Below are positions 1 to 38,488 of a stretch of 64,000 nucleotides of DNA, piece after piece. The DNA comes from Earliella scabrosa (taxonomy: Eukaryota > Basidiomycota > Agaricomycetes > Polyporales > Polyporaceae). Each line of letters begins with the position of its first letter. Position 1 is the stretch's first letter. Made by a program: the position numbers and the translations under genes. Below the pieces are notes generated by a model. It was not told the DNA's origin, ran no database searches, and saw nothing but the letters and a program-made list of their open reading frames with translations. The stretch spans positions 2,418,001-2,482,000 of the forward strand of contig JABYQQ010000001.1 in assembly GCA_022605405.1 (NCBI GenBank). Reading direction: 5' to 3'.

Positions 1-432
1 CTCGCGTCGCGCAGTGGCCCATGTTGTGCCCATCCTTGTCAGTCCCACCCAGGTTACGTATACATCATCGTATACATTAATGAGTATTCGTTCTCTTTGG
101 GCGGAGTACAATAGCTCGTGAGGTATGGGATCTTAGTGGAAACCCACTGTTGACTGGTCTTGAGCAACTTCATTGAAGTCGAGCAGTATCGCGCGAGGAG
201 ATATGTTGTCAATAGTTGTGAGAGCTGAACATCTGTACGTACGGTGATGTCCTCTAGGGCAGGAAAACTTAGGATGGCGTGAGTATCAAAATCATTACCT
301 ATGTCGTCGGGTAGTGGCGGTCGTTGGACCGAGTACAGTTAGTGGCGCGTCATTGGATCCAAGGGCATCACGACCTTGGTGGTCCAGGCGAAGCATAGAA
401 GGTGGATTGTGCGATTTCATACTTTCATGTAC

Positions 433-3163
433 CTAACGGTTTTGTACAATGGGACACACGGCATTACTCAATCCCAGCTCCCATGCGTCGGCTTGCATAC
501 CGTGCTGTCAGCGGGCTTTAGCCAAAAGTCTGCACCCTTAGGGAAGGAATGTCAACTCACAAGTATAGTTTCGTCTTCCGTACATATGTCCACAGGCATG
601 ACTTCGCTCTGGTCGATATACGCCGCTCTGTCTGACGCCATCTCCAAGTATACGTTCGGACTTATGTCTCGTGCTGTCCGATATAGCTCCATAATTTCAC
701 TTGGGATACCGTCGATATGTTGTATTGACCCTAGTGTGTGTGTCAGCGATCTCTTATTGCGTGGAGTGATTGCATGTACCGTCTGTCATCATGATTGACG
801 ATCGAACTGCTGCGTTCCACATTCCAATCTCCCTCAACGCGTCGACCAACGAGCGCCGGACTTCGACGTAACTTCTGTTGATGACCTCTCGGCAGAGCAC
901 GTTCCTGTATTAGGGACAACATTCAATGATGACGAGAAGCACGGTATGAGGGTGTACTGACGTCAATTGGGGCCCCGCTCCGGGAGCATACGGAAAGGCG
1001 TGCAGTGGTCCGGACTGGGGGCACTGTGTGGTGATCACAGCGTTGCGGAGGCCGTGTAGTATGATGCGGGTCCGTAGGTTGTCGAAGTCGTAGCTATGAG
1101 TGCCTTGTAGCGGCCATTGGTCGACGTGAAGCACTCCGCGATAGGCTGGAGATCTTCTCCAGTCGGCGTAAGGTCCGCTACGCTCAGCTAGCTCAGTACT
1201 CATCTCGAGTGCCCCGTGGTACAGAGTCTGGAAGATGTCGATGTTGAGTGCTCTTGATTCATTGGAACCGTAAGAGACCCCGAAGGCGATGAAGGTGTCC
1301 GCAAGGCCCACTGCGCTAATATTGAGGGCACGAGTGCGTGTAGCGGAGCGTTGTGAGGCTGTGGTTGGGTAGGAGAGCATATCCACCATGCGATCGCAGT
1401 TGAGCACTGTGAGTCGCGCTATGTCGTGCAGGGTATCGAGATCATATTCTCCGCTTTGCCGGACGAACTTTTCAAGCGAGATGTACGCAACAGGAGGGCA
1501 AGGAGTAGTGTTGGTGCATGAGACTTGGGAAACTTCCCCTGTCGTATTCCCGGCCCTTATGAGCCCTAGGTGGGTTTGCACGCTTTTACCTGTAGATTGA
1601 TCAGATTGAGAAGCTTCGTATGTTCACTGTATGCATGCTTACGATTAACAGTGCAGCTAAACACGCAAGTCGGGTACCCGGTATTTCTTTGTGCTTCGCA
1701 CAAGGCCTGCCACACGTCTTCGGCTGGTAGCACGGCGATTGGGGTGACATGGTTCTCGTATTGCTCGTATGCGTATGTAAGAGATTGCCCATAAGACGCC
1801 TGTAGAAGAGGTACGTCATCCGGGTCGAACATGGTCCATCTTCCCTCAGTTTCCAGTCTTTCCATGCTGTCATTGGTATTTGGTCAGCAGGGGAGGACTG
1901 CCAGGTTAGAACGACTCACAAAGCATCGGGAATCAACACAGCGGGCATTATGAGGTCGATCGGTTGACCATGCTCCGCACCGTTGAGAGTGTGACAGCGT
2001 ATAAAGCTCATGATATCGCCATGCCATATGGGGAGATATGCGGTCGCCAACGGTGGGTCCCTGAGATAGGTCCAGTTGTGGTACTTGGCATGGGAGTTGA
2101 GCAACTGCAGCGTTGCTACCACACCGCGATTTACTGAACGACCTTCTCTGAAAGGACGAAGGTCAATATGTGCGCGCGCGGGTTTCGTAGGGCTAGGTGC
2201 ACCTTTGCGCAGGAATGGCGCTCATACCTATTCCCATCGTGGCACCGGTGGCCCAGATATCGTCGATTTCATCCATATTCGGATTCTGTTGACCGTCCGG
2301 GATGGTAAGCTCGTATATGAATGACGGGGGATAGAGAGGTTCCGTGGTTCCTGCTCGTAACATGAACTCCGCAGAGTATGAGCAGAGGCCGCGTGATAAA
2401 GCGTCGTAGGTTTTCACGACCATCTCGAGGTCATGACCGTGAATTGCGAGTGCTGCGCGCATGTACGCGAATTGAGGTCGCTCGATTATGTCTCTTCGCG
2501 GTGATCGCCTGAGGCAATGCGCTGTTAAGCCACGGAGTGAAGGACTGACATCCGTGAGATATAGCATTAGTGTTGAGTATGAGCCTTACTAGTAATATTC
2601 GGAATCCCTTTCGTGTACCAGAACGGAATCGAGAAAAGAGCCATGGGTGCGCACTGCCTCAAGTATGGTGGACGACAGATTGATCTCATATTCTGGGAGG
2701 GTGTCATCACGTATGCGCAGAGGCCCACGATGGATACGTACTTGAGCATATGACTTCTACCCACATAGCGAAGGACGGGGGTGTGACGTCGTGGAGGTGG
2801 TGTGCGAGGACTCTCGATGCGAGCATGTAGTACTCGTGGTCGTAAGTGCCAAGTTCCGCGATAGCTGCGGCACTCATCGGCTGTGACTGGGTCTGAGTAT
2901 GGGATATTGGTTGGGACGTGCAGAACCCACCCCGAACTGCTGTGGTCCCGAGAGATGAGGAATTAATCTGAATACTGTCTCTACGACCCTGATGTACTTT
3001 CAATGTCAGCGGAATTGGTCGAGGTCGTTCTGCTGCTTTACGACTTACAGGTTTATGTTCCGACTAGCTGTTGGTAGTCCATCCGACATCTGCGCCTGTA
3101 AGTGAAGAGGGAGCAGGAGGAGGGGCAAAAGTACGACCTCACCTTGATCAAGTGGTCGGTAAA
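433..3163 (-). CDS. RNR1-like pseudo-enzyme, array copy 1
   Basis: Homologous along most of its length to the large (alpha) subunit of class I ribonucleotide reductase, which normally makes deoxynucleotides in the cytosol. Removing introns 505-560, 731-779, 905-961, 1590-1642, 1867-1919, 2148-2202, 2545-2589, 2693-2741, 2887-2930, 2989-3048 and 3096-3142 gives 714 continuous codons (stop 433-435). Family landmarks in order: YYMLASRVLAHHLH, RDIIERPQF, AIHG, MGIG, WHGD, MERLETEGRWTMF, NRKSVQTHLG, LNISAVGLADTF, FDNLRTRIILHGLRN, GSIQHIDGIP, AAYIDQS. By human RRM1 numbering C218 is Ser, C429 is Thr (GNTTGE, with N427 and E431 kept), Y737-Y738 is Cys-Pro, and the protein stops before the C-terminal cysteine tail. 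C444 is ambiguous: a Cys lies one position away. Catalysis looks impossible by the known mechanism. The first exon is not resolved; a start near 3379 or elsewhere upstream is possible. Confidence 0.88.
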
Positions 3164-3400
3164 CTTCACATTGAAGGGTGAGTAAATGTACAGAGTCAGA
3201 TCATGTTGCAGTCACCTCTTCCTTGCGCACGAAATGGTGCGTGCTGCACTGATATCAGCGACGGTTTAGAAGCGTTCTAGTCTGTACGCACTCAACTGCG
3301 AAACACGCAGTGAGCGGCTTAATCAAGCAAGTATCTGCGTTTGGCACCTACTTGCTCTAAATACGATGGGATGTGCCATACTTCGATTGTGCCTTAGAGC

Positions 3401-4243
3401 TAGTGATGTGCCGGGCCGGGCCGGGCTCAATTGCCCGGGCTAGGGCCGGGCTTATGAGGGCTGGGGCTCCCAGATATGTCAAGCCCGGCCCTCCAAGAGG
3501 GCTCAGGCTGGGCTCGGGCCGGGCCGGGCTTAAGCCCGGGCTTATGATAGGGTTATAACTAATGATAGTTACCGCCTTCCAGTACAAAGTACAATATGTT
3601 CACGGTCGAGAACTGCATACTTCAGCATACAAGTGATTACTACTATGCATACAAACACTTACCAGAGTGTACTTCCTCCGCTATGGTGCTATTCGGAACC
3701 CTGCGCCTTGTTCTATGAGCGGCTATATGCGGTTAACATAAGCAATCAGTAACGAAGCGATTGGAAATTACAATGACACTTACCGATGACTATTATGGAC
3801 TCTCTATTTCCGCTCCACACATCCACGCTGACCTCCCATTCAGACCACTCATGCTCTTGGGTTCCAAGTGCCAGCTAATTTAGGTTAAGATGACCGTCGA
3901 CAGGCACTATGGGACTGTTTACTTACGGAGAGACACCGCTCAGTCGGGAGCGCGCTTGCTACGGTGTGGGAAGCCATTGAGTAAAGAAGGTTTGATGACA
4001 GATCTCATCGGTCACGACCTCCGGACCACTCATATACAGTTCTCAGCCACCAATTTCCGCCGAACTCCGGCACATTTCCTTATTTAGACAAGCCCGGGCT
4101 CACAGGCCGGGCTCAGGCTTTCAAAATCTGAAGCCCAGGCCCTCGAGCCCTATGAGCCCACCCTAAGGGCCGGGCCGGGCAGGGCTTATGAGGGCCGGGT
4201 ACCCAGGGCTTCCGGGCTTCAAGCCTGGCCCGGCACATCACTA
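3401..4243. mobile_element. hAT-type MITE, 843 bp, array copy 1
   Basis: Non-autonomous DNA transposon. It starts TAGTGATGTGCCGGGCC and ends with the exact inverted complement (ggcccggcacatcacta). It is flanked by perfect 8-bp direct repeats CTTAGAGC at 3393-3400 and 4244-4251, the target duplication length of hAT elements. The first 150 and last 150 bp are rich in GGGCCGGGC/GCCCGGGCT subterminal motifs in both orientations, which in hAT elements are typical transposase-binding repeats. No transposase frame is present; the 65-codon plus-strand frame at 3890-4087 is too short to matter. It sits just upstream of the RNR1-like gene. Confidence 0.93.
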
Positions 4244-5043
4244 CTTAGAGCGGGTGTCTGAGGGTTAGTTAGGTCACTGTGATCGGGACATTATAGTCTG
4301 TGGCTCTCCACACCTGTACAAGCGTTTCCCTCTGATGATAGTGCTGGGATAGTCTTCCTTCAAGGTCAGAATGGTGGATGGTTACTCGTACTTATAGCTC
4401 AGGATGTGGTGTACGCGCACTTGCCTCAATGGACATCGTTTTTGGGTTATCTGCGGGTTTCTGAACAACTCGAGTGCTTTGATGTAGCGCAGAGCTCGGC
4501 CCGATGCTCCGGTCAGGCATGTGAGGGATTGGTCCCACGGGGAGAAGTTCTTCCGTTCCTGTGGCGGTCAGTAGGCCGATGATCGCAGCAGCCACTTTGA
4601 TAATGTGGCGGGGCACTTCGCGGACACGGATGCTGAAGTTAGAATGTGGTCTCGGCCCCGATGCTGTTAAGAATGTTCGACGTGAACGGTCTGAGGTTTG
4701 CAACGAGATCTAGGCGTTTCCTTGGCAAGTGCCTCCGATCGGCAGATCCATTCTATGTGGCGTTGTGTTGTGCGGCGTGGACGCCTTCGTTCCCCAAGAT
4801 AGTACCTTAATAACGGCAGCCCGGTCCCTGGGTACGTTCTCCCGGGTTGTGAATGGCGAACAGGCGACAATAACGCGTCATTATGAGCGCCATTGTCTTG
4901 TACACACTGATCGTGAATAACGCCAGTGCTATTCACGGGACTAAGTCTACGTAACGGTGAGAGTAGACGGCTGCGATATGCGAGCAGTCGGGCTATTCGT
5001 TCACACGTTCCGTATAGCATGGCTGCCCCGCGGCCTGAATGAT

Positions 5044-5959
5044 CTATACGTCTCGGTGGATTATAGAGGTAGGTGCGTTCTGTGGGAATGGTGCGTACCG
5101 GTACATGATGAACTCGATGAGTTGCCGGTCAGCCGAAGATACGTTGATCAGCGCCATGGGAGTGCGAGCTGAGTGCTTCAGGACGAGTAGGTTTCCTCGC
5201 ATAGCTAATCCAGTCGCTCGTTGCAAGGTCTCGTTGACAGGGCACTGGGAGCACGTTAACGCAGTGATGAGGGTGAAGTCATTGACGAGATTGAACGTAG
5301 TGTAAGGGATGTTGTACGTGTAACGGGTGCTGTAGCCCGCTGGAAACCAGCGCAAGACGTTGAGATCCTCAGTCCACGCTGAGCGAGTGATGTCCCCGTC
5401 CACATTGGTCGTGACGGGAAGCAGGATGACCCTCGACCTTGAGCAGCCGATTGGGTACAGGAGGCCTTTGATCAGTTTCCACGCTTGTCCCTAGGTGGGG
5501 TACGCCTACGTATGTCATGGCGTTATTTATTCTGGAAGTACCGGTGGCTCACCTCACGTTGCATTGCCCTTGCTCGTTCATTCCATCTTCTGATCGCGTC
5601 GGGTGTCGCTCTCGCTCCTTGAGATGCATGGTTCTATGTTTCCAGGCGGTGAGAACATGGTAAGAGCGGGCGGGGAAGTTTTGCATACAGCGGTGCTGTG
5701 GCTGCGACGTCTCCGTGCCATGGGCTTTCGCGGGTGAGCGCTTTGCGTATCGCACGGCAGTAACAATAGAGGAGGTATTTATACGGCTATACGGCATAGA
5801 CGCCATTGGCAAAAAATGGTCAGAGGGGATTGCGAGCGAAACTGGGACCCACTGAAGGCCGTGAACGCTATGCGCTTCGGGGCGACAAACAAGTACAAAC
5901 TGTCCGGATATAGTAAGTTGAAGCGCCGAAACATTGTCTCCCGGGCGGAGTGCCCTCAA
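5044..5959 (-). CDS. Unnamed agaricomycete family protein, array copy 1
   Basis: Two exons, 5558-5959 and 5044-5490, around an intron of 67 nt (GTGAGG..CCTAG) that keeps the frame; about 280 residues. I do not know a function. The C-terminal part has a distinctive block: an LNVLRWFPA segment, a VNDFTLITALTCSQCPVNE segment, then RGNLLVLKHS followed about 10 residues later by INVSSADRQLIEFI. The last block aligns with the end of the protein at 45001-45582 (GCVVVMKTSS .. VDMTPSDIEHVREFF), so the two are probably distant relatives. The start is uncertain: the frame is open to 5959, but an upstream exon cannot be excluded. Confidence 0.6.
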
Positions 5960-6254
5960 AATATAACTATTGAGACTGATTCTGATTTACGAAGCACAGT
6001 CATTTCAACGTTCGACAGCATCACTGTTTAGGTGCTTCCTACTGTGATATGATCCTTGTTTGTGGCCTTTGGGTCATACGATAAAGCACCTTCTTGCTAG
6101 ACGGCAAAGACGAGTGAGGTGAGGTTCCACACGTCACTCCGATACACCGCGAACAGGGATGACAATAGCACGCTCCAGCGACAGCCCTTCTGGACAGGGG
6201 GATCGAACATAATCAGCGATTTTTGAGCACGAACGACCTAGTCGTACATGGCGA

Positions 6255-8715
6255 TCAGCTAGGTCCAAGACTACCTCGTGCTGGAAAGTTTACTCAGTCT
6301 TTTCGTTCGTGCCCTGCCCTCGACGAACAACTTTGCCTGCCGCCGGTGGAGCACTGCATACCGCATTCATCCACTTTGTTTTTGGAAGTACCGCACCGCC
6401 AGAGTTTGCTGCTGTTGCTGTTGGTTGGTACCTCCTTCCCCGTCGAGCTGTGCCCTTTAGTAATTTCTCTACAGCTCCGTTGTCTAGTTCGCCGACTCCC
6501 GTCGCAAAGAGGTCTGCCAAGGCCGGTCTCCGGAGGAAGGCCTAACCGGGACCTACCGCGCCCAAGCCTACGAAACGGAAAGTGCCGATCGAGGAGGCTG
6601 TGGATGAGAACGTTTCTCCTAGAGCCCTTGTCGACGATGCTGCTACTCGACCAACCAAACGTGCTCGCACCTCTTCCCCGGACAACTCAGCAGCGTCCAG
6701 AGACCTTCTTGACGTCACAGGACGACAATCAACAGCGCAAATTGTCATGGGAGCGACGACGAGAACGCTCCGGCCGCCCCAATCCCTGCACCTCAAGGTC
6801 CCCCTTGGCCTAAGAGAGTCGGCGCGAGTGCAGCAAAAAAGAAGGTCAAAGAGGATGCGAACCCAGCGACGGAGCAGGTAATGAAGAGTAAACCCTCTCC
6901 AGTCCGAATTTCAACACAGGCGCCTGTCGCCGTTAAGGGTCAGAACAACGCGCAGGAGAAGCGTCAGGCCGTGGAAGATATCGCGATGCCGATGCACAAC
7001 AAGACCACAGCGCCGGTGGAAGTGATCTTCGACTGGGATGCTATACCGGCCGACATGACACGCCCTCCCGTCGTCGTAAACCTCTTCCCAGGATTGCTCG
7101 CGTTGGCTCTATAACCCATATTGGCACGTTCCGTTGAATGCTTCCCCTTTACTCCCACAAGTGATCTTCGCACGAAGCGCAAACGGTGCAGTCAAGCCAT
7201 CGACGAAAGCAGTACAACCAGCAGTTGCCTTTGACAAGGTAAGTGAGCTTCGCGAATTCATGAATGCGCTACACTCAATCTGCCATCATTCGTTGCGCAG
7301 GCTGGTGCTAGTATGGCCACTTCGTGCTCGAAGAAGTCAAACCGTACTCGTTGAGATGCAATCGCCAACAGTGCTCCTGTCCACGACGCGCTTCTCTCAA
7401 AACCTGCGACCGCTGCTACAGATGCCGTCATCCAAGCTGTGTCGTCCGACGAGATCCACGATGAGCCGCAAGACGCGGGCGGAGACGTCACCCTTATTGA
7501 GGTACCTGTACCTCCCAACCGCGAAGCACAGAAATCAGACATGCCCCTCCCCAAGGACGGCACGACGAGGATCGTGAGTCCGGTTGTCGAGGTATGCAGT
7601 CGTATTGACTCATCGATCATGTTTCTCTCACACGCCATTTATGGTCCAGTCCAACGGCACGACTCTGCCATCGTGTACCCATAAAGTGGGCCATTCGCTT
7701 GGTCCTTAGATAATCCGCTCATGGTCTTTGATACCCAGGTCGTCGACTCTGCACCTTGAAGAACCCTGTTACCGGCAAGAACGAACTCCGAAACCAGTGA
7801 TCTCCCTCTAGAATCCCCTCCCAGGCCGACTCTGCGCGTTCCCAAGTCCCTGCGCGGGCGGTCGCTGCGTTTGTCTCCGCCTCCGGTAGTGCCTCAAGAG
7901 GTTGAAGATAATATGGGTATCAATGATGAGCCACGGATGGCGCACACCTGAGTCTATCTTCCGCCCTCTGCACCGCGGGATCCCAGTGAATACCACCACA
8001 GCGGGAGTTTGGCATCTGAATAGTCGGAGGAAGACGACGGGCCGAACGAACGTCATCACCAACCTGTGAACCCCCGCCTAAGTAAATACACTTATATCCA
8101 ATTAACCCTGAGAGGCTGACACTGCCTTCGAGGGGTCGCCACCACATCGAAGCAAGTGAAGCGTCTCGAGGAGCAATTCGCTGCACATATCCAGAAAACC
8201 GCCGTCGAGGCTCCTAGTGCTGGGACCTCTGTCTATCACAACGATCCTTGCATGGAGCGCATCGTGGAGGTGTTAGACCAACTGCATCAGGTATGCTTAG
8301 CTTCCAATTCCAAGTTACACGGTAGCTTGTGTCTCTTATCATCTCGCTGGCAGGGGGTCATCAGCAACTTTAGAGACAAGTCCGAGAGTGTGCGCCCCGA
8401 GGCACGCGTCGGGCAAGATGAGACTCTGCGGCGAGCTGCGGACAATCTGCACTCTATTCGTCTGGTTCCATTCATTAGGTTTGAGAACGCCTAGCCAGAT
8501 CACTGTGTACCATAACGCACTTGAATCAACTATTTGACCTCGAAGCCCAGTACGCTACGGTCAGCAGGAACCTGATGAACGGCACCGAAGATTCGACGAA
8601 GCTAAACCGGGAGATCTACCACGAGTTATGTCAGGCAGTGGAGACCCACGATGGGAATATGTTGCGGAAGGGATTTCCGGTCAGGTCGGTGCCCGGGCCT
8701 ACGATGAAGTGGTAA
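6255..8715 (+). pseudogene. Degraded multi-exon gene, array copy 1
   Basis: Plus-strand sequence with protein-like composition but no continuous model. Pieces: a Pro/Ala/Arg-rich stretch near 6470-6540 ending in a stop; TKRKVPIEEAVDENVSP and TKRARTSSPDN near 6570-6700; SAAKKKVKEDANP near 6830; a fragment near 7440-7520; and a probable coiled-coil part, KRLEEQFAAHIQKT at 8156 joined by a plausible 63-nt intron (8290-8352) to a stretch ending near 8494, then LFDLEAQYATVSRNL at 8530. Basic KR clusters suggest a nuclear protein, but I do not recognise it. The unit boundary at 6254/6255 cuts directly upstream, so the 5' end may have been lost at the duplication breakpoint. Confidence 0.45.
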
Positions 8716-8932
8716 CCCTTAGCATGTTGTTACTCTTCGTATCGTATACCCCAATGTTGTCGTCTTGCTGTGCCTGCTGCCAATGTTCGTAGCGTCAGAC
8801 GCGTTTGGCATATGCTGTGCGAGAGCCGCCGCATTACCATTTTTGCAAGATTCCCGGTTTCCTCCTTGCGCGCTTCCTTCTTCGTTCTGCTCTCTCAGCC
8901 TGAATTCTTTTTCTTGTCTTCGCACCGTCCCT

Positions 8933-10525
8933 ATGCCCAAGGCAATAAAGACGAAAGCCGACAAAACGCCTGTCAAGCCTACTTATGCGCAGAAAGCTGC
9001 CCCTTCGTCCACGAAGACACCCGCCACCAAGCCCGTCCCTTTGCAGGAAGTCATCACGAACGCGCACGAACAGGTATATAGGAGATTGCCTACACGCCAG
9101 GTATGGACATGTATGGAGCTCTATTGGCTAAGGCTGAGGTGAAGGTGAAAGGCAAGAAGGGATAGGACTGCAGAATCGATGATTCCGAGTCCGAGTCCGA
9201 TAAACACTGAAAGCTCACGACACGGTCAGTCTTCATCATCAGATCACCGGTTTCGTAGAACCTAAACGCGTTTACATTCTTGTCCTACAGCCCAAGGCAT
9301 ACGCGAAACCCAAGGAGTCCATTGCGGAAAAGTCTGCAAATGAGATGAAGTCCAAGTTCGAGGCCGCCAATGGCTAGGTGCGCGCGATTGCATACCACGA
9401 AGATCTTGACGCTGATGCTGCGTGTAGGCAGTACCTGCAAAAGGCGCACCGAAAGCGGCCAAGAAGCCAGCTCCTATGGAGCACGCGAACTCCAGTGACT
9501 CCGACTCTTGAGAGTGGGGGTCCCAGTATGACAAGAAGTCTGCCGGAGCACCTCAAGCCATGAAAGGCAAGGTGCGTCCCGATTTTCAACGACTATTGCC
9601 TATCTTCTAAGCCATGGTATAGCGGGCCGCCTCGAGTAGCCGCAAGGTGAGCAGCCAGTCAGAGTCAGAGTCTGACGACAAGAGGTCTAACGCACCGCAA
9701 GGAAAGGCAATACTCGAGAAGGTTGCTCCGTAGAAGTCGCATAGCTCGTGGTAGGACGAAGCTCGCGTGAAGCATACTGTACGGGCAGAGAAGCCCACTC
9801 GCTCGAAGGGGCCTCCGGCACACGTGGCCCCTGCAACCAACGCTGATTCGGTGCTCCCGTTGGCGAGGAAACCTGCAGCAGTACCGAAAGAGCAGGCGAA
9901 GAAGTGCGACTTTGATTCGGACTCGTCAACTTCTGATTTTCACTCCGGGTCAATTCCAAGTCTTCTGCTGACGAGGACGAGGATGTCGAGATGGCTAATG
10001 CTACTGGTGCCGGTGCCAAAAGTGAGTGCGCTCTACTCTCGGTATCCCTTCTCAACTCGACCTTTGGACTGCGTCAGGTAGGCGGAAACCTGAGGACGAC
10101 GACCGTGTTCCTGGCAAATTGGTGAAGATTCCTAACGGCGACGCCGCCCCTTCCTCCAACTCCGGCACAACCATCACCGTTTTCTATCGCCGCGCCTCAT
10201 GGAACGTCATGAACGAGTGGCTTGCGCAACAGCTCGCTGAATGTGGTGAGCTCGTATCCGTCCGCGTGCATATGGACCTCAACACCGGCTCCTCGCGTGA
10301 GTGTGGTTACGTGACGTTCGCGGCCACGCAGGCTGTCAAGGCTGCCCACGTACCCAACGGCAAAGAGAGGGACTGCCATGCGGTCAACGTTAACAATTCC
10401 AAAAGAAGCACAATGACACCGTGCGCGAAAACCGCGCTAAGCTGTTTGACGACACACAGAACGCAGCCACCCTCGCTCTCTTCGAGAGCCAACCCAGCTT
10501 CAACCTTACCCAGGACACCGTGTAG
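8933..10525 (+). pseudogene. Nucleolin/Gar2/Nsr1-like pseudogene, array copy 1
   Basis: Remnant of a nucleolar RNA-binding protein of the nucleolin (Gar2/Nsr1) family, which acts in pre-rRNA processing. A Lys/Pro/Ala-rich N terminus begins at ATG 8933 after a pyrimidine-rich leader. Acidic serine tracts follow (DDSESESDK near 9178, SQSESESDDKRS near 9650, and an EDEDVEMANATGAGA reading near 9980). Then comes an RRM: degenerate RNP2 ITVFYRRAS, EWLAQQLAECGELVSVRV, RNP1-like SRECGYVTF and ERDCHAVNVNNS near 10180-10390. After a +1 shift near 10400 the frame reads NRAKLFDDTQNAA and SFNLTQDTV, the linker and start of a second RRM, then a stop. Stops at about 9163 and 9730 and the shift make it non-functional. 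Retained intron-like segments suggest a duplicated gene rather than a retrocopy. Confidence 0.72.
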
Positions 10526-11413
10526 TAAGTCTTCGCAGGGTACGCCTGCGGGGGCCGCATGAGTTGGGCCATGATGAACGGGTCAACCGCAGGTGAGTAG
10601 TCGTCACCGTTGGACTTAGGGCATCCTCAATTAATGTCTTCACCCAAAGACCTTCGTCGACCGCGGTACACAATCAGTGTGCAGCGTTGAGTGGCGAGCA
10701 GCAGGAGTCGGTGAAATTACAGCACCGCGGTATGGAGGTAGAGAGCGAAAGATCCCTCGCGGTGGATCTGCAGGCCAACATTGTTGGCGTCCTTCGGAAG
10801 TAGAATGATGATGTGGTGTAATATCATAGCGAGCAAGGCAGAATACCACACAAGTTGCCCCCCTAACCCGATTAACCTATTGAAGCGTACTCACCAGCCT
10901 TGGGCACGACTGCTAAGGGTCATGCGGGCTGGAGTTATCGATCGTATGCACAAATGCATAGCGGGAGTAGCGGAGCACCGTATCAACGACGTCAGTTCGC
11001 TTTGCGATCCTGGGTTCATCTGGTGGTGAAGGTAGTGTGCACTTGTTGTTGTATCGCATGGAGGCATTTTGCGCGCATAGGCGAGGCAGTCGATATAGGA
11101 ATCGCGGAGAAGTGAGTGGTTCGCATGTGCAAATTTCGCCCGCGCCATGTGGCCTGGTGGACTACATCCTGTAATGCGGTGTGTCCGTTTGCCGCGGTGC
11201 TACGGATCGAAACGTCAAACTTCATGAAGTTGACAGGTCTTTTGCCCCATACTAGTTGCAATCAATTACAGATGGGCATTGTTGCGCGCTCGTCATGCTA
11301 GTCAGGCATATTCTTCACTTCCAGTGACACGCACAGGCGCAAATAAAATGGGTGAGAATCATCACATTTGAAGCGGTAACGAACCCTGTATGAACGACAA
11401 TGTACTGCATGAC
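10526..11413. other. Region without a supported gene, array copy 1
   Basis: About 890 bp between the nucleolin-like remnant and the F-box-like gene. It holds only overlapping short frames on both strands (up to 85 codons at 10891-11148, minus strand). None has recognisable motifs or convincing splice connections. The same sequence is at 25712-26600. Confidence 0.5.
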
Positions 11414-12517
11414 CTATCGACAGCTCGACTTTGAGCGACGTGGTCCATACTGCTTGGTACCTACGGTGACGAGGCAGGATGATGGGATCTGCAAGGGGTT
11501 CCTACGACCTTGAATGCGGAACGGGTTAGGGAGGAAGAGGACTGGAGTGGTAACTAGCCATTCATGTAGTACAGGGTCCTCGGCTTCGCAGCCGTCTATG
11601 CAGTCGTAGGTCGTCAGGAGGCGCCATGCCACAGTTGGACCGAATGGAGGTACATTGAGTGCGCGGAGATTGTTAAACGCAGGACTCTTCGGGTCGAAGA
11701 ATCCTACAAGAGATCCTGCATCTCCGAAGTAGTGCCCCTGATGGGGACATAGGAATCGAGCTCTAAGGCAGGCGAACGCCTCGGTGGCAGGTGTGTGTGG
11801 GTAAGTGGGCTGATATTCCGGCCACTGGAGTGGGTTGACCACGAGATCAAATCCCGCAGCCACTAGGGTAAGCATGGACAGGTAGTCGGTGTCACAACAG
11901 TTGTGAAGGCGCATATTGGAGATGATTCCTCGGCGACTGAAGGTCAGCTCCGGGTAGCCGCACGCGAAGGTATGTTCGGTGACGTAGTTCATGAGTGCGG
12001 ATGACACAGAGCGGGCAATGATGGAAGAGCCGGTCATAATGCTGGAGCGATAAACGATAATGGAGCGCTTGTTGCGTAGGCGGAATGTGGCAACGCAAGT
12101 GATGTGACGCTCGCGCGAGAATTGGGGGGGAATGCCCGTGGGCTGAAGGGACAGTCGAACTCCGGCTTGGTGTTCGGCGGCCTGGACGGCGTCGACGAAC
12201 CCCTGGAACGCCGTGTTTCCGACGTAGATTTGGAGAATGTCGCTTTGGATGGACGGGTCTCGCAGAACGAATGCCACTGCTGCGATGCCCCCTATGACGG
12301 CGCGGAATTTGGTGAGGAGGTGGAGGAACACAGTCGGGCTTGAGACGAACTTCTCGAGGATCGCGAGCCTCTCCCTGTAGAGTGCGCTCGTCACCTCCTC
12401 GTAAAGAGCACGGCATACCGCGCGCCATCGAATTGCGGTTTCTATGTCCATGGCGCTGGCAATCATCCCATGGATTTCGGGGTGTAGGCTAGATAGGATC
12501 ATATCAGCTTCGACCAC
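11414..12517 (-). CDS. F-box-like protein with degenerate nucleotidyltransferase-like segment, array copy 1
   Basis: Intronless, 367 residues. The N terminus (LHPEIHGMIASAMDIETA followed by RAVCRALYEEV, residues about 10-43) resembles an F-box helix bundle, which would link a target to an SCF ubiquitin ligase. Next, AVIGGIAAVAFVLRD (about 68-82) followed by QSDILQIYV recalls the G[GS]xxAL..FL..[DE]xDI signature of nucleotidyltransferase-fold domains, but the paired acidic residues are not convincing. A C-terminal block with CPHQGHYFGDAGSLVGFFDP and LNVPPFGPTVAWRL is shared almost word for word with the gene at 41188-42537, proving a paralogous family. No function is established. The divergent plus-strand side (12518 onward) is the likely promoter. 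Confidence 0.72.
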   Translation of the reverse strand: MVEADMILSSLHPEIHGMIASAMDIETAIRWRAVCRALYEEVTSALYRERLAILEKFVSSPTVFLHLLTKFRAVIGGIAAVAFVLRDPSIQSDILQIYVGNTAFQGFVDAVQAAEHQAGVRLSLQPTGIPPQFSRERHITCVATFRLRNKRSIIVYRSSIMTGSSIIARSVSSALMNYVTEHTFACGYPELTFSRRGIISNMRLHNCCDTDYLSMLTLVAAGFDLVVNPLQWPEYQPTYPHTPATEAFACLRARFLCPHQGHYFGDAGSLVGFFDPKSPAFNNLRALNVPPFGPTVAWRLLTTYDCIDGCEAEDPVLHEWLVTTPVLFLPNPFRIQGRRNPLQIPSSCLVTVGTKQYGPRRSKSSCR

Positions 12518-13825
12518 TTGTGGCGCTGGAAGCTGGGCACAGACAGACGTACTCGAGAATGTTGTCTGGACGCTCTTCTCGACGGTACAGCCAGACAGTC
12601 GTTGGTGCTAGCGAAGTACTATTTCCTGAATCGTGAGATGGATTCTACGCGATTCGCTCAACGTCAATACATTAGGTGGAATGTGGGCCTGACTCGTACC
12701 TGTGGGAGTGGTACCTGCGCGTGATAGCTCCAGCGGGACGTCGATGTCGCCATGCGGACAGCGGTATATGTGGGTGTGTTCACGTTGAGCGGTAGGGCAG
12801 ACTCAGTAGTATTGCCGGCGCATTGTGGTGCCTTTTGAACAGAACATCACCTTTCCGAATTGTGAAGCTAGGTTTATTGATCAGGTACATATGTCCGCAC
12901 CATGTTCACGATTGTTCTCACCCGGAGCGCCATTGAAATGGTGCCTTGTGGCTTGTTCTAAAGGTAGTACGTGCCTCGTGCGCGGCTGGAAAAAGAGATT
13001 GATAATACGTCATCGGTGAACGTTGGGTTAGTGCTAGAGCTTTGGACATGTTCCTGATTGCGTGGATCCGCTTACTATAGTCTGTAGATGCCAACGGCTC
13101 ACTGGTGCACGTATTGTCGGCCCTGTGGTGCTGATGTACTCTCCATCTGGACGCTCTATGCCAGGCACCAGGGGTTATGGACCGATGTTCGTCCGGTCAA
13201 GCACCGCGATACCCTGTACCGCCAAGTCAGGGTCATTCGGCGAAGCAGGCCACGATTCATACCTCCTTCAGCTTTCCTAGGTTCAAGCGCACCAGCGCGA
13301 GGTTATTTAGCAACTGTGTGCTTCCCGAGGTCCAAAGTTCGTCTGGATGCAGTGAAGTTTTGACCGTACTTCTGGAAGGTTAATGAACATTTACAACATC
13401 CAGCAAAATCTCTTCCATGCCGTGGTGACGACCACACGCACACACACACACAACAGCAGGCAATAGCAATCAGTCACTAACATTGAGAGACTCCATTATG
13501 TATGACCAACGACGACAAACCACAGGACTCGATGCTCGTATTGTCCATACCGCCGCCGCCTGACAATACACCCCCTCTGCACTCCTCGTCAGACGTCAAA
13601 GGACTCACCCACTGTCTATCCCCGGTCTCGTTGTCTGCGTATCTATCGTTGCCGGTATGCTGGATCTAGATCTGAGGATGCGCAGTTGGTATACAAAGAG
13701 AACGACAAGCAAATGGAATAGCACCTTGTCAACGGTCGTGCTGACGACCTTGGGGAACGCACCGAGAGCCTTGAAGACAACCTAAGAACACAAAAGACGA
13801 CCTAAGAACACACTCAGCAACAACG
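12518..13825. other. Non-coding region with a CA microsatellite, array copy 1
   Basis: Upstream of the F-box-like gene. Short overlapping plus-strand frames (60-90 codons at 12518, 12825, 13062 and 13088) have no recognisable motifs. A short CA repeat lies at about 13436-13451. A tandem pair of the 13-mer gacgacctaagaacaca-type sequence lies near 13783-13815 (the block acctaagaacaca occurs twice, 21 bp apart). Equivalent region in copy 2: 27705-29012. Confidence 0.45.
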
Positions 13826-14617
13826 TCAACCACGCGTCAATAGACCGGCACTTACGATCACGAAACCGGCGATGAGGTGGCCAAGACCCTTGACGGTAAT
13901 CTGGGCGGTGGCACCTTCGACGGAGGGGACCATGACCTTAACGGGCTGGCCGCAGAAGCATGCGATGACGATTGTCTTAATCTCACCGATGAGGACCGAC
14001 TCAGCCCCAACCGTGCTTTTCGTGCAGGCCACATACTCTGTTGTACAACCATTAGCCCACTGTTCTTACCACGAAACCGCGGTAGTACTCACATCGTTAG
14101 GGCGTGACCGCCACAAGCCAGGCGTGCACGGCGATGGACACAACCAGGATCCTCGTGGGTGCCGCAACGCGGGGAAGAACACCACCGACCGCAGGAAGGG
14201 CGAGAACGCCGTTTGTGGCGGTCTTCACGGCACCGAAGAGCGACAGCGACTACAAGTACCGAGGCGACCATGAGTGAGCTGTTCCAAGTACAAATGGGAT
14301 AGACGAATACAAACAAAAACAGACCAAAGAGAGACGGAGCTGCAGCCAGAGAGGGCAGTCCGAGAGACCAGAGGCAAATAACGATGACGACCGTCCTTGT
14401 CGCCAAAGAGAGTGAGAACGACGGCTAACCTTGTGGCCAGAGAACGACAATGACATGGAAGTTCTAAAGGGTGACCCAAGACGCAAGTAGTCAGCTCACA
14501 TGAAGGAAGTAGAGAGAATGTGACTGGACTTAGCAGGTCGTGAACTCGAACCTGACAAATCAATCTGCGGAGTTTCAATACTCCGGCCAAAGCCGCCGCA
14601 GGTAACGAGGCGCCCAT
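13826..14617 (-). CDS. Hydrophobic protein of unknown function, fragmented model, array copy 1
   Basis: Minus-strand stretches with protein-like, strongly hydrophobic composition, probably exons of one small gene or its remnant. MGASLPAAALAGVLKL at 14617 looks like a start. VVIVICLWSLGLPSLAAA (near 14390) and a following FLFVFVYPICTW could be a membrane segment or signal. A frame ending near 14104 reads ATNGVLALPAVGGVLP. The next stretch (13826-14032) carries ACTKSTVGAES, IACFCGQPVKVMVP and KGLGHLIAGFVIVSAG. I could not splice these into one frame with confidence and do not recognise the family. Confidence 0.3.
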
Positions 14618-14749
14618 GCTGTCTTGATTTGGAAGGCGGTGGGTGAACTCCTTTGCCTGTGCATTGATCTCGAAAGGTTGCGGCTACATCAAAAGGCTAG
14701 GCAAGTTCGCTCTTGAAAGGTCAAAGGTCCGAGCACAAGGTCAAAGTTG

Positions 14750-15213
14750 GCGGAACGTCCAAAAGTTCAGGTGGATTGTGCTGATCGGCGGCCGTTCGGT
14801 GCGAGGGTCTTCTCCAGCTCCATTGTCACGCGCGGCCAGTCACCGTCGGCGGATGGGAAGAGCGCGGCGTTCATGATCTTCCGCAACGAATTCGCGCTGG
14901 GGTCCTCGGCGACCGCCGCGAAGCGCGTAGCGGACATCGCGACGTACTCGCCCTGGATGTGAATGCGCGCGACCGCGGACCGGAGCGCAGGCGAGGTGAC
15001 GTTGTCGCGCCGAAGACACATGGGCTGGGGCAGTTTCCCCCGCCGCAAAGTCCTGCACGCCGGCGGTTCAACACCTTGCACTCGGTGTTTAAAAATGGAT
15101 GCGCACACACCTTCATCTCGATGAGCTACGAGGCGAGGATGAGACAGACCCGCGCGCCGCGGTCGATCCGAGTCCACATGCCCGCCGCGGCCTCGCGTCG
15201 CGCAGTGGCCCAT
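14750..15213 (-). other. GC-rich, possibly coding block, array copy 1
   Basis: Composition changes abruptly to GC-rich from about 14780. The minus strand has an open frame (15213-14767) whose second half reads like protein (VARIHIQGEYVAMSATRF, AEDPSANSLRKIMNAALF, MELEKTLAPNG). Two other minus frames are also open here, as is common in GC-rich DNA. No family recognised. It lies about 1.6 kb downstream of the next array copy of the RNR1-like gene. Confidence 0.3.
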
Positions 15214-15623
15214 GTTGTGCCCATCCTTGTCAGTCCCACCCAGGTTACGTATACATCATCGTATACATTAATGAGTATTCGTTCTCTTTGGGCGGAGTAC
15301 AATAGCTCGTGAGGTATGGGATCTTAGTGGAAACCCACTGTTGACTGGTCTTGAGCAACTTCATTGAAGTCGAGCAGTATCGCGCGAGGAGATATGTTGT
15401 CAATAGTTGTGAGAGCTGAACATCTGTACGTACGGTGATGTCCTCTAGGGCAGGAAAACTTAGGATGGCGTGAGTATCAAAATCATTACCTATGTCGTCG
15501 GGTAGTGGCGGTCGTTGGACCGAGTACAGTTAGTGGCGCGTCATTGGATCCAAGGGCATCACGACCTTGGTGGTCCAGGCGAAGCATAGAAGGTGGATTG
15601 TGCGATTTCATACTTTCATGTAC

Positions 15624-18348
15624 CTAACGGTTTGTACATGGGACACACGGCATTACTCAATCCAGCTCCCATGCGTCGGCTTGCATACCGTGCTGTCAGC
15701 GGGCTTTAGCCAAAAGTCTGCACCCTTAGGGAAGGAATGTCAACTCACAAGTATAGTTTCGTCTTCCGTACATATGTCCACAGGCATGACTTCGCTCTGG
15801 TCGATATACGCCGCTCTGTCTGACGCCATCTCCAAGTATACGTTCGGACTTATGTCTCGTGCTGTCCGATATAGCTCCATAATTTCACTTGGGATACCGT
15901 CGATATGTTGTATTGACCCTAGTGTGTGTGTCAGCGATCTCTTATTGCGTGGAGTGATTGCATGTACCGTCTGTCATCATGATTGACGATCGAACTGCTG
16001 CGTTCCACATTCCAATCTCCCTCAACGCGTCGACCAACGAGCGCCGGACTTCGACGTAACTTCTGTTGATGACCTCTCGGCAGAGCACGTTCCTGTATTA
16101 GGGACAACATTCAATGATGACGAGAAGCACGGTATGAGGGTGTACTGACGTCAATTGGGGCCCCGCTCCGGGAGCATACGGAAAGGCGTGCAGTGGTCCG
16201 GACTGGGGGCACTGTGTGGTGATCACAGCGTTGCGGAGGCCGTGTAGTATGATGCGGGTCCGTAGGTTGTCGAAGTCGTAGCTATGAGTGCCTTGTAGCG
16301 GCCATTGGTCGACGTGAAGCACTCCGCGATAGGCTGGAGATCTTCTCCAGTCGGCGTAAGGTCCGCTACGCTCAGCTAGCTCAGTACTCATCTCGAGTGC
16401 CCCGTGGTACAGAGTCTGGAAGATGTCGATGTTGAGTGCTCTTGATTCATTGGAACCGTAAGAGACCCCGAAGGCGATGAAGGTGTCCGCAAGGCCCACT
16501 GCGCTAATATTGAGGGCACGAGTGCGTGTAGCGGAGCGTTGTGAGGCTGTGGTTGGGTAGGAGAGCATATCCACCATGCGATCGCAGTTGAGCACTGTGA
16601 GTCGCGCTATGTCGTGCAGGGTATCGAGATCATATTCTCCGCTTTGCCGGACGAACTTTTCAAGCGAGATGTACGCAACAGGAGGGCAAGGAGTAGTGTT
16701 GGTGCATGAGACTTGGGAAACTTCCCCTGTCGTATTCCCCGGCCCTTATGAGCCCTAGGTGGGTTTGCACGCTTTTACCTGTAGATTGATCAGATTGAGA
16801 AGCTTCGTATGTTCACTGTATGCATGCTTACGATTAACAGTGCAGCTAAAACACGCAAGTCGGGTACCCGGTATTTCTTTGTGCTTCGCACAAGGCCTGC
16901 CACACGTCTTCGGCTGGTAGCACGGCGATTGGGGTGACATGGTTCTCGTATTGCTCGTATGCGTATGTAAGAGATTGCCCATAAGACGCCTGTAGAAGAG
17001 GTACGTCATCCGGGTCGAACATGGTCCATCTTCCCTCAGTTTCCAGTCTTTCCATGCTGTCATTGGTATTTGGTCAGCAGGGGAGGACTGCCAGGTTAGA
17101 ACGACTCACAAAGCATCGGGAATCAACACAGCGGCATTATGAGGTCGATCGGTTGACCATGCTCCGCACCGTTGAGAGTGTGACAGCGTATAAAGCTCAT
17201 GATATCGCCATGCCATATGGGGAGATATGCGTCGCCACGGTGGGTCCCTGAGATAGGTCCAGTTGTGGTACTTGGCATGGGAGTTGAGCAACTGCAGCGT
17301 TGCTACCACACCGCGATTTACTGAACGACCTTCTCTGAAAGGACGAAGGTCAATATGTGCGCGCGCGGGTTTCGTAGGGCTAGGTGCACCTTTGCGCAGG
17401 AATGGCGCTCATACCTATTCCCATCGTGGCACCGGTGGCCCAGATATCGTCGATTTCACCATATTCGGATTCTGTTGACCTCCGGGATGGTAAGCTCGTA
17501 TATGAATGACGGGGGATAGAGAGGTTCCGTGGTTCCTGCTCGTAACATGAACTCCGCAGAGTATGAGCAGAGGCCGCGTGATAAAGCGTCGTAGGTTTTC
17601 ACGACCATCTCGAGGTCATGACCGTGAATTGCGAGTGCTGCGCGCATGTACGCGAATTGAGGTCGCTCGATTATGTCTCTTCGCGGTGATCGCCTGAGGC
17701 AATGCGCTGTTAAGCCACGGAGTGAAGGACTGACATCCGTGAGATATAGCATTAGTGTTGAGTATGAGCCTTACTAGTAATATTCGGAATCCCTTTCGTG
17801 TACCAGAACGGAATCGAGAAAAGAGCCATGGGTGCGCACTGCCTCAAGTATGGTGGACGACAGATTGATCTCATATTCTGGGAGGGTGTCATCACGTATG
17901 CGCAGAGGCCCACGATGGATACGTACTTGAGCATATGACTTCTACCCACATAGCGAAGGACGGGGGTGTGACGTCGTGGAGGTGGTGTGCGAGGACTCTC
18001 GATGCGAGCATGTAGTACTCGTGGTCGTAAGTGCCAAGTTCCGCGATAGCTGCGGCACTCATCGGCTGTGACTGGGTCTGAGTATGGGATATTGGTTGGG
18101 ACGTGCAGAACCCACCCCGAACTGCTGTGGTCCCGAGAGATGAGGAATTAATCTGAATACTGTCTCTACGACCCTGATGTACTTTCAATGTCAGCGGAAT
18201 TGGTCGAGGTCGTTCTGCTGCTTTACGACTTACAGGTTTATGTTCCGACTAGCTGTTGGTAGTCCATCCGACATCTGCGCCTGTAAGTGAAGAGGGAGCA
18301 GGAGGAGGGGCAAAAGTACGACCTCACCTTGATCAAGTGGTCGGTAAA
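15624..18348 (-). pseudogene. RNR1-like gene, array copy 2, with frameshifting indels
   Basis: Second copy of the RNR1-like gene at 433-3163, with the same exon order and splice sites. Single-base differences fall inside exons: three losses in the last exon near 15632-15662, a gained c near 16740, a gained a near 16850, and losses near 17133, 17231-17236, 17459 and 17480. Several would shift the frame, so as written this copy cannot make the full protein. All the differences are indels in or next to short runs of one base, the pattern of uncorrected long-read error, so the copy may really be intact. The same catalytic replacements are present. Confidence 0.75.
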
Positions 18349-18586
18349 CTTCACATTGAAGGGTGAGTAAATGTACAGAGTCAGATCATGTTGCAGTCAC
18401 CTCTTCCTTGCGCACGAAATGGTGCGTGCTGCACTGATATCAGCGACGGTTTAGAAGCGTTCTAGTCTGTACGCACTCAACTGCGAAACACGCAGTGAGC
18501 GGCTTAATCAAGCAAGTATCTGCGTTTGGCACCTACTTGCTCTAAATACCGATGGGATGTGCCATACTTCGATTGTGCCTTAGAGC

Positions 18587-19429
18587 TAGTGATGTGCCGG
18601 GCCGGGCCGGGCTCAATTGCCCGGGCTAGGGCCGGGCTTATGAGGGCTGGGGCTCCCAGATATGTCAAGCCCGGCCCTCCAAGAGGGCTCAGGCTGGGCT
18701 CGGGCCGGGCCGGGCTTAAGCCCGGGCTTATGATAGGGTTATAACTAATGATAGTTACCGCCTTCCAGTACAAAGTACAATATGTTCACGGTCGAGAACT
18801 GCATACTTCAGCATACAAGTGATTACTACTATGCATACAAACACTTACCAGAGTGTACTTCCTCCGCTATGGTGCTATTCGGAACCCTGCGCCTTGTTCT
18901 ATGAGCGGCTATATGCGGTTAACATAAGCAATCAGTAACGAAGCGATTGGAAATTACAATGACACTTACCGATGACTATTATGGACTCTCTATTTCCGCT
19001 CCACACATCCACGCTGACCTCCCATTCAGACCACTCATGCTCTTGGGTTCCAAGTGCCAGCTAATTTAGGTTAAGATGACCGTCGACAGGCACTATGGGA
19101 CTGTTTACTTACGGAGAGACACCGCTCAGTCGGGAGCGCGCTTGCTACGGTGTGGGAAGCCATTGAGTAAAGAAGGTTTGATGACAGATCTCATCGGTCA
19201 CGACCTCCGGACCACTCATATACAGTTCTCAGCCACCAATTTCCGCCGAACTCCGGCACATTTCCTTATTTAGACAAGCCCGGGCTCACAGGCCGGGCTC
19301 AGGCTTTCAAAATCTGAAGCCCAGGCCCTCGAGCCCTATGAGCCCACCCTAAGGGCCGGGCCGGGCAGGGCTTATGAGGGCCGGGTACCCAGGGCTTCCG
19401 GGCTTCAAGCCTGGCCCGGCACATCACTA
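18587..19429. mobile_element. hAT-type MITE, array copy 2
   Basis: Same 843-bp element as in array copy 1, with the same termini and the same CTTAGAGC duplications at 18579-18586 and 19430-19437. Identical flanks in every copy show that it inserted once, before the array was amplified. Confidence 0.93.
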
Positions 19430-20227
19430 CTTAGAGCGGGTGTCTGAGGGTTAGTTAGGTCACTGTGATCGGGACATTATAGTCTGTGGCTCTCCACACC
19501 TGTACAAGCGTTTCCCTCTGATGATAGTGCTGGGATAGTCTTCCTTCAAGGTCAGAATGGTGGATGGTTACTCGTACTTATAGCTCAGGATGTGGTGTAC
19601 GCGCACTTGCCTCAATGGACATCGTTTTTGGGTTATCTGCGGGTTTCTGAACAACTCGAGTGCTTTGATGTAGCGCAGAGCTCGGCCCGATGCTCCGGTC
19701 AGGCATGTGAGGGATTGGTCCCACGGGGAGAAGTTCTTCCGTTCCTGTGGCGGTCAGTAGGCCGATGATCGCAGCAGCCACTTTGATATGTGGCGGGCAC
19801 TTCGCGGACACGGATGCTGAAGTTAGAATGTGGTCTCGGCCCCGATGCTGTTAAGAATGTTCGACGTGAACGGTCTGAGGTTTGCAACGAGATCTAGGCG
19901 TTTCCTTGGCAAGTGCCTCCGATCGGCAGATCCATTCTATGTGGCGTTGTGTTGTGCGGCGTGGACGCCTTCGTTCCCCAAGATAGTACCTTAATAACGG
20001 CAGCCCGGTCCCTGGGTACGTTCTCCCGGGTTGTGAATGGCGAACAGGCGACAATAACGCGTCATTATGAGCGCCATTGTCTTGTACACACTGATCGTGA
20101 ATAACGCCAGTGCTATTCACGGGACTAAGTCTACGTAACGGTGAGAGTAGACGGCTGCGATATGCGAGCAGTCGGGCTATTCGTTCACACGTTCCGTATA
20201 GCATGGCTGCCCCGCGGCCTGAATGAT

Positions 20228-21143
20228 CTATACGTCTCGGTGGATTATAGAGGTAGGTGCGTTCTGTGGGAATGGTGCGTACCGGTACATGATGAACTCG
20301 ATGAGTTGCCGGTCAGCCGAAGATACGTTGATCAGCGCCATGGGAGTGCGAGCTGAGTGCTTCAGGACGAGTAGGTTTCCTCGCATAGCTAATCCAGTCG
20401 CTCGTTGCAAGGTCTCGTTGACAGGGCACTGGGAGCACGTTAACGCAGTGATGAGGGTGAAGTCATTGACGAGATTGAACGTAGTGTAAGGGATGTTGTA
20501 CGTGTAACGGGTGCTGTAGCCCGCTGGAAACCAGCGCAAGACGTTGAGATCCTCAGTCCACGCTGAGCGAGTGATGTCCCCGTCCACATTGGTCGTGACG
20601 GGAAGCAGGATGACCCTCGACCTTGAGCAGCCGATTGGGTACAGGAGGCCTTTGATCAGTTTCCACGCTTGTCCCTAGGTGGGGTACGCCTACGTATGTC
20701 ATGGCGTTATTTATTCTGGAAGTACCGGTGGCTCACCTCACGTTGCATTGCCCTTGCTCGTTCATTCCATCTTCTGATCGCGTCGGGTGTCGCTCTCGCT
20801 CCTTGAGATGCATGGTTCTATGTTTCCAGGCGGTGAGAACATGGTAAGAGCGGGCGGGGAAGTTTTGCATACAGCGGTGCTGTGGCTGCGACGTCTCCGT
20901 GCCATGGGCTTTCGCGGGTGAGCGCTTTGCGTATCGCACGGCAGTAACAATAGAGGAGGTATTTATACGGCTATACGGCATAGACGCCATTGGCAAAAAA
21001 TGGTCAGAGGGGATTGCGAGCGAAACTGGGACCCACTGAAGGCCGTGAACGCTATGCGCTTCGGGGCGACAAACAAGTACAAACTGTCCGGATATAGTAA
21101 GTTGAAGCGCCGAAACATTGTCTCCCGGGCGGAGTGCCCTCAA
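20228..21143 (-). CDS. Unnamed agaricomycete family protein, array copy 2
   Basis: Same two-exon gene as at 5044-5959. No difference was noticed across this part of the repeat, so the predicted protein is identical, including the RGNLLVLKHS and INVSSADRQLIEFI blocks. Function unknown. Confidence 0.6.
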
Positions 21144-21438
21144 AATATAACTATTGAGACTGATTCTGATTTACGAAGCACAGTCATTTCAACGTTCGAC
21201 AGCATCACTGTTTAGGTGCTTCCTACTGTGATATGATCCTTGTTTGTGGCCTTTGGGTCATACGATAAAGCACCTTCTTGCTAGACGGCAAAGACGAGTG
21301 AGGTGAGGTTCCACACGTCACTCCGATACACCGCGAACAGGGATGACAATAGCACGCTCCAGCGACAGCCCTTCTGGACAGGGGGATCGAACATAATCAG
21401 CGATTTTTGAGCACGAACGACCTAGTCGTACATGGCGA

Positions 21439-23902: not shown

Positions 23903-24120
23903 CCCTTAGCATGTTGTTACTCTTCGTATCGTATACCCCAATGTTGTCGTCTTGCTGTGCCTGCTGCCAATGTTCGTAGCGTCAGACGCGTTTGGCATAT
24001 GCTGTGCGAGAGCCGCCGCATTACCATTTTTGCAAGATTCCCGGTTTCCTCCTTGCGCGCTTCCCTTCTTCGTTCTGCTCTCTCAGCCTGAATTCTTTTT
24101 CTTGTCTTCGCACCGTCCCT

Positions 24121-29804: not shown

Positions 29805-29935
29805 GCTGTCTTGATTTGGAAGGCGGTGGGTGAACTCCTTTGCCTGTGCATTGATCTCGAAAGGTTGCGGCTACATCAAAAGGCTAGGCAAGTTCGCTCT
29901 TGAAAGGTCAAAGGTCCGAGCACAAGGTCAAAGTT

Positions 29936-33541: not shown

Positions 33542-33778
33542 CTTCACATTGAAGGGTGAGTAAATGTACAGAGTCAGATCATGTTGCAGTCACCTCTTCC
33601 TTGCGCACGAAATGGTGCGTGCTGCACTGATATCAGCGACGGTTTAGAAGCGTTCTAGTCTGTACGCACTCAACTGCGAAACACGCAGTGAGCGGCTTAA
33701 TCAAGCAAGTATCTGCGTTTGGCACCTACTTGCTCTAAATACGATGGGATGTGCCATACTTCGATTGTGCCTTAGAGC

Positions 33779-38436: not shown

Positions 38437-38488
38437 CTATGCAGTGAGCACAGCGCGGACGTGAGAGGTAGGCGGTCGCACTCACATC

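Follow-up and report, generated by a model that had tools for sequence, protein, structure and literature searches.

How does a spliced, near-full-length homologue of the ribonucleotide reductase (RNR) large subunit keep its reading frame after losing the residues of its chemistry, and what carries it in a fungal genome? The question is raised by a minus-strand gene at the left end of the window, the 64,000-nucleotide stretch of contig C1 of Earliella scabrosa (Polyporales) considered here (Table 1). We think it probable that the RNR genes of this locus are cargo of a giant element of the Helitron superfamily, in which a catalytically complete large subunit (A) and an R2 protein form an element-encoded RNR, and the window gene (type B) is a non-catalytic alpha partner or a binder of a host protein.

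Splicing, residues and predicted fold of the window gene

Read from 3163 to 433, the window gene contains 11 introns of 45-60 nt, each bounded by GT and AG (11/11), and a spliced frame of 716 codons without a stop that ends in TAG at 435-433. The first-pass annotation had the 11 introns right, while its count of 714 codons is replaced by 716, or by 718 with an alternative acceptor of the first intron. Position 3163 carries no ATG, so the true start may lie further 5'. Exon-wise searches matched the Pfam profiles Ribonuc_red_lgC (best exon 2e-36) and lgN (3e-9), and the NCBI model P0001, 100% identical to the window gene across 84% of the query, matched PF02867 (lgC) at 6e-91, in agreement with the earlier assignment to near-full-length class I RNR alpha. 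A second spliced alignment, made without the first-pass exons, placed nine introns, eight of them of the kind first annotated; the ninth (194 nt) extends beyond the gene end and was rejected as spurious. When aligned with a fungal RNR1, the housekeeping gene of the same genome, five of the eight introns fall on its intron sites exactly or at most two codons off (146, 258/260, 339, 414 and 622). Two more of the eight, 664 and 720, are present in paralogues and absent from housekeeping RNR1, and the three 5' introns match exon joins of the NCBI model P0003. The automatic NCBI models P0001 and P0003 do not track the tandem copies: the former lacks the 5' exons, and the latter joins the B gene, minus its middle, to a frame from the G2 stretch.

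Residues are given in human RRM1 numbering, transferred through an alignment to the genome's own RNR1, on which the sites were placed by motifs that we take to mark them. The gene carries C218S, C429T, C444P, Y737C and Y738P and retains N427 and E431; all the replacements named in the first-pass annotation (Thr for C429, Ser for C218, Cys-Pro for Y737-Y738), and the two retained residues, are borne out. Threonine thus occupies the site of the thiyl-radical Cys429, and serine and proline those of the redox pair Cys218/Cys444, leaving the product without these catalytic cysteines. The PTAS phosphate loop is altered to CPQSG. AlphaFold modelled P0001 (582 aa, 29 sequences) with a pLDDT of 82.5 and a pTM of 0.85, and the model superposes on human RRM1 (6lkm) with a TM score of 0.91 by query length. 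The window-gene product is therefore predicted to keep the RNR alpha fold.

Table 1. Positions of the RNR1-like genes and neighbouring features in the window
Feature	Position	Strand	Remarks
15.19-kb tandem repeat array	1..36635		1-21441 vs 15192-36635, 99.75%; presumably starts left of the window
B-type (catalytically dead) RNR1-like gene, tandem copy 1	433..3163	-	12 exons, 716 codons
'G2' frame	5047..5490	-	also matched in 8 loci fetched from other elements
'FBN1' gene	11417..12607	-	family without Pfam match
B-type gene, tandem copy 2 (W2)	15624..18348	-	coordinates approximate; 10 single-base indels vs copies 1 and 3 over the gene region
FBN1, tandem copy	26604..27794	-	
B-type gene, tandem copy 3 (W3)	30811..33541	-	open like copy 1
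Second FBN-family gene	41191..42579	-	best match C10:1235974-1237086 (C10 element), 49%
'Gene X' frames	45004..45922	-	also found in the C10 and other elements; rightmost element-like sequence of the window

Catalytically complete A genes

The genome contains 99 exon matches to PF02867. Grouped visually, they make up 45 loci, comprising the housekeeping RNR1 (C9, L009), the three tandem copies of the window gene and 41 further loci. The 42 loci counted as non-housekeeping were sorted, again visually and on the basis of position and score, as A (30 loci) or B (12 loci), of which 19 and three, respectively, were examined. Spliced alignment of the 19 A genes (L010-L028) gave no stop and no frameshift, with the proviso that the aligner can present an insertion as an intron. 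It did so with a 522-bp insertion in the frame of L027 (L027:5487-6008), which is absent from the 99.8% identical L028; the A gene of L027 is probably broken. The matches flanking this insertion overlap by 11 bp, like a target duplication.

Introns 664 and 720 are found in 19/19 A genes, and the housekeeping gene lacks both. N427, C429, E431, C444, Y737 and Y738 are likewise kept in all 19, and C218 in all except L017, which has C218S, so that 18 are complete at all seven positions. Our own automatic A models lack the last exon; among A-like NCBI models of this and other Polyporales, 8/17 end in CxxC. One E. scabrosa protein, P0148, has C218S, N427S and C444S, but retains C429. The stretch around the specificity loop is shortened in A and B genes. 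In other RNRs the ATP-cone is the dATP feedback site. Two of five A-like models matched it under the cut-off (E values of 0.0015 and 0.0007) and three were unmatched, two of these starting after that domain; the ATP-cone of the element A genes thus appears to be degenerate. Species of Lentinus, Polyporus, Ganoderma, Daedaleopsis and Trametes have A-type relatives for which no ATP-cone is listed. A conserved multi-exon gene, 'G1', lies divergently about 1-3 kb upstream of A in L010-L028, and as many as 16 other loci contain related frames; G1 yielded no convincing Pfam match.

Constraint on the dead B genes

The twelve B loci are positioned beside an FBN gene and are mostly low-scoring. C218, C429 and C444 are missing in all three B genes examined (window, C10 and C13). 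The C10 gene, read in DNA, has T218, N427, S429, S431, A444, Y737 and Q738. The C13 gene, taken as the NCBI protein model P0002, which is labelled partial and stops before the relay, has S218, S427, T429, D431 and V444.

Both B genes read in DNA, those of the window and C10, are free of stops and frameshifts over about 680 codons. Across 667 codons they share 43% amino-acid identity, with differences at codon positions 1/2/3 of 0.45/0.34/0.65. In the elements that carry these two B genes, the A genes (L010 vs L013) are 61% identical and differ by 0.33/0.20/0.64, so that B changes faster than A. Codon positions 1 and 2 of B are constrained. As a reference we used 142 positions at which no fewer than 18 of the 19 A genes agree with one another and with the housekeeping gene. 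Of these, 86/142 are conserved in the window gene, 93/141 in C10 and 92/131 in C13 (61-70%), and 70 are conserved in all the B rows covering them. All three B genes have lost 30, four of them only via a gap in the C13 row, and 16 of the 30 lie around the active site, at 200-219, 429-453 and 602-607 of the reference.

The tree unites the three B sequences in a single clade (100/100), with a program warning about their long branches. The same tree groups 11/19 A genes (99/95), including those read from B-carrying elements. B groups with fungal A genes; this tree contains no herpesvirus R1. Among the best 120 of 122 matches in one profile search, none could be recognised as a B-type gene from a different species.

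A pseudo-enzyme kept by selection rather than in decay, as the first-pass annotation had proposed, is supported within this genome by the sequence comparisons, the third dead B gene being available as an NCBI model. What that proposal missed is the larger fact, the setting of the gene in a multicopy giant Helitron-superfamily element with an apparently active RNR1 and RNR2.

The strongest rival concerns the role of B. It holds that B is purely a decoy or inhibitor of a host protein (a defence, cell-cycle or DNA-editing factor) on an R1 scaffold, unrelated to nucleotide reduction. It overlaps with the last clause of our preferred reading, and we regard it as rather unlikely. There are viral precedents, since inactive betaherpesvirus R1 homologues act on RIP1 signalling (PMC5469499) and the R1 of KSHV sequesters APOBEC3B (PMC12282084). 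In B, too, the active site has been lost more than the scaffold, and the faster divergence from C1 to C10 would suit a decoy. However, B shares its element with R2 and A, which fits an RNR-internal role equally well, and the host partner is only hypothetical. A regulatory alpha partner is favoured over a host-protein decoy, only slightly.

It is improbable that the B genes are decaying passengers, that is, duplicated A genes heading for loss and spread by the element. The replacements at catalytic positions differ among B genes and their branches are long, as decay would predict, but two of them lack any stop or frameshift despite 65% third-position differences, their first and second codon positions are constrained, and the 70 A-invariant positions persist in every covering row. 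Open frames and codon-position bias likewise disfavour a plain pseudogene.

Linkage of R2 and RepHel

PF00268 gave 80 matches in the genome. Apart from a housekeeping pair on C5, they represent 28 extra R2 loci. The pair (C5:1027425-1030462; L029 and L030) is a divergent tandem of housekeeping-like R2 genes with 85% identity over the core. Among seven element R2 genes read, E170, H173, Y177, E233, E267 and H270 are present in 7/7 and D139 in 6/7; the exception, L035, has D139N, which leaves the six metal ligands and Tyr177 complete in 6/7.

Beside the R2 gene on C10, and divergent from it, is a RepHel gene in a single frame of 2041 aa with matches to DUF6570, Helitron_like_N (PF14214; 2e-34) and PIF1 (PF05970; 4e-26). 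Its translation contains HCH, YYVTDYITK and GGVGGTGKS, which we take to be RepHel motifs. The C10 element thus encodes the combination of a Rep domain and a PIF1-type helicase that identifies a Helitron RepHel. PF14214 had 68 matches in the genome, and two fragment rows were left out. A RepHel lies within 5 kb of 24/28 extra R2 genes, in divergent orientation in all 24 and at 3.2-3.6 kb from match start to match start, where 0.36 would be expected under uniform placement. Of the four remaining R2 genes, one (C8) has a RepHel at 9.5 kb and one is at a contig end. The linkage extends to the large subunits, 38/42 RNR1 loci being within 65 kb of an extra R2. The window's own element has a RepHel match in a 1992-aa frame (C1:2395750), an R2 gene at C1:2392523 and L010 as its A gene. 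About 40 further RepHel places have no extra R2 within 5 kb (G000 C1:2146813, C6:2114187 and others), and several of their frames exceed 2500 aa.

Terminus, layout and span of the probable element

Downstream of A, the similarity among L027, L028 and L014 (99.8% identity for the first two, 78% for the third) ends at one shared place, after GGCCAGGTCCGCCCGGAGGGCCCTTACCTAT, beyond which the flanks are unrelated. The terminal motif was found at 10/19 A loci (at most 6 mismatches in 24), and in all ten the aligned motif ends in YTAT. Its core has 86 matches genome-wide with at most two mismatches, and the reversed control has none. A terminus lies on the same strand within 5.5 kb downstream of 22/30 A loci and 0/12 B loci; eight A loci have none within that distance. 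The 63 of 86 matches away from RNR genes may belong to other or non-autonomous members. Within the window, the motif was absent at up to three mismatches. The canonical mark of a Helitron 3' end is CTRR. The end found here is YTAT, and the element is accordingly filed at the level of the Helitron superfamily only. A GCCC-GGA-GGGC hairpin inside the 3' end is conserved, and in four sequences it was no stronger than in shuffles. Helitrons insert between A and T and make no target duplication; here, TA is followed by T at 10/10 ends, all of them the same, single identified end of the element.

Given one identified end, the sizes obtained are spans between the outermost assigned parts rather than full elements: about 38 kb (C9), 41 kb (C10) and 74 kb (C13). 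On C10 the order is FBN1, B, G2, FBN, FBN, RepHel, R2, gene X, FBN, FBN, G1, A and terminus. Eleven B loci have an R2 within 65 kb; in eight of them B and R2 lie on opposite strands, and in three (the window copy, C8 and C13) they share a strand. The position of A loci near a shared terminus (22/30), together with the R2-RepHel linkage, identifies the RNR genes as probable cargo of very large Helitron-superfamily elements, with about 25 copies in the genome.

An ordinary fungal gene cluster that arose by segmental duplication from a host locus and received Helitron insertions by chance would account for the spliced, host-like genes and for the 15.2-kb tandem duplication. This is very doubtful, as the spacing and orientation of RepHel and R2 are constant in 24 copies and the sequences beyond the terminus are unrelated in three. 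An endogenised DNA virus with spliced genes, for which RNR1 plus RNR2 would be a typical gene set, is the least credible origin: the introns match host RNR1, the conserved replication gene is RepHel, and a search for DNA polymerase B, which also led us to reject an endogenous giant virus or mirusvirus, found no expansion (18 matches in five places, four of them away from the blocks). A single-copy DNA polymerase B place, C8:1700115-1701642, lies just past an FBN gene, at a distance of about 1 kb, and some 8 kb from a B locus.

Proposed role of the RNR cargo and comparison with known systems

In the Helitron-cargo reading, a full element would comprise RepHel, an R2 with metal ligands and radical tyrosine, a catalytically complete A near the terminus, and FBN genes, to which one sub-lineage would have added B, a second large subunit without the thiyl-radical and redox cysteines. 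Judged by their residues, an intact A and R2 should yield dNDPs, and the pair may raise dNTPs where and when the element copies itself. A degenerate ATP-cone in A would imply weaker feedback inhibition. Extra dNTPs would be an advantage when tens of kilobases are copied by rolling circle outside S phase. As a scaffold without chemistry, B might pair with A, R2 or host RNR1 and tune the complex, or bind a host protein. We advance more tentatively the idea of a transposon with its own dNTP factory, in which giant rolling-circle elements would encode a complete, feedback-loosened RNR (A and R2) and a dedicated dead alpha, B, as regulator or decoy, and would handle nucleotide supply as large DNA viruses do.

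Fungal Helitrons of up to 14 kb and maize Helitrons of up to 39 kb have been described, and full-length host gene capture is considered exceptionally rare in the same review (PMC6431247). Like the fungal RepHel elements HELPO1/2 of Pleurotus ostreatus (PMC4289320), the E. scabrosa element has Rep and PIF1-type helicase regions, extra genes and a short conserved terminus in many copies. Unlike known Helitrons, it spans 38-74 kb between its outermost assigned parts, carries full-length spliced genes for both RNR subunits and ends in YTAT rather than CTRR. Neither 'ribonucleotide' nor 'reductase' occurs in the main text of the Pleurotus Helitron paper (PMC4289320). Fungal DNA transposons carrying TET/JBP genes, Helitrons included (PMC12730594), likewise retain a host-type enzyme gene as cargo; the enzyme is a different one, and 'ribonucleotide' is absent from the main text of that paper. 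A literature search at the level of listings and the opening lines of abstracts found no report of RNR cargo in Helitrons or rolling-circle transposons.

Catalytic residues and introns of eukaryotic class Ia RNR (RNR1/RNR2) are preserved in A and R2, and some A-like models keep the CxxC end; the differences are the degenerate ATP-cone, the shortened specificity-loop stretch of A and B and the location in a transposon. The B genes resemble betaherpesvirus R1 (HCMV UL45, MCMV M45) as RNR large-subunit homologues without catalytic residues in a genetic parasite (PMC5469499), but they are a separate lineage, and the E. scabrosa element also has what appear to be an active R1 and R2.

Whole spliced RNR genes have been retained under selection in a diversifying Helitron lineage until more than half of third positions differ, which suggests that nucleotide supply limits the copying of large rolling-circle elements. 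Such a system would be the equivalent, in a eukaryotic transposon, of viral RNRs and inactive viral R1s, and its naturally paired active and dead R1 genes lend themselves to testing how a subunit without chemistry is put to use.

Tandem array and neighbouring genes of the window

The B-G2-FBN1 stretch of the window sits inside the 15.19-kb array, which has at least 2.6 units when the part left of the window is counted. Copies W1 and W3 of the B gene are identical over the gene. W2 differs from these two by its indels and by no substitution over the first 3.3 kb of the unit, and its single-base indels are therefore read as probable sequencing errors, not decay. The array could be a rolling-circle product, the outcome of unequal exchange or an assembly artefact. 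Matches to the fetched loci end near 46 kb of the window, and a GH85 gene follows at 49.5 kb.

For the FBN family, 74 of 109 places were used, two tandem copies and the weakest being left out; of the strongest 62 used, 61 have an RNR1 or R2 within 65 kb. The two FBN-family genes of the window have, by eye, an F-box-like start and a GGxxAxxxLRD-like stretch recalling nucleotidyltransferases, and the family has dozens of copies, mostly in RNR blocks. Its structure prediction was too poor for use (pLDDT 37.8). Immediately right of the array end, at 36897-38573, is a Ser/Ala-rich frame of 558 aa with 42-bp repeats. Between the B gene and G2, at 3401-4243, are paired GC-rich inverted repeats (I1, 21 nt, 95%) of MITE-like appearance.
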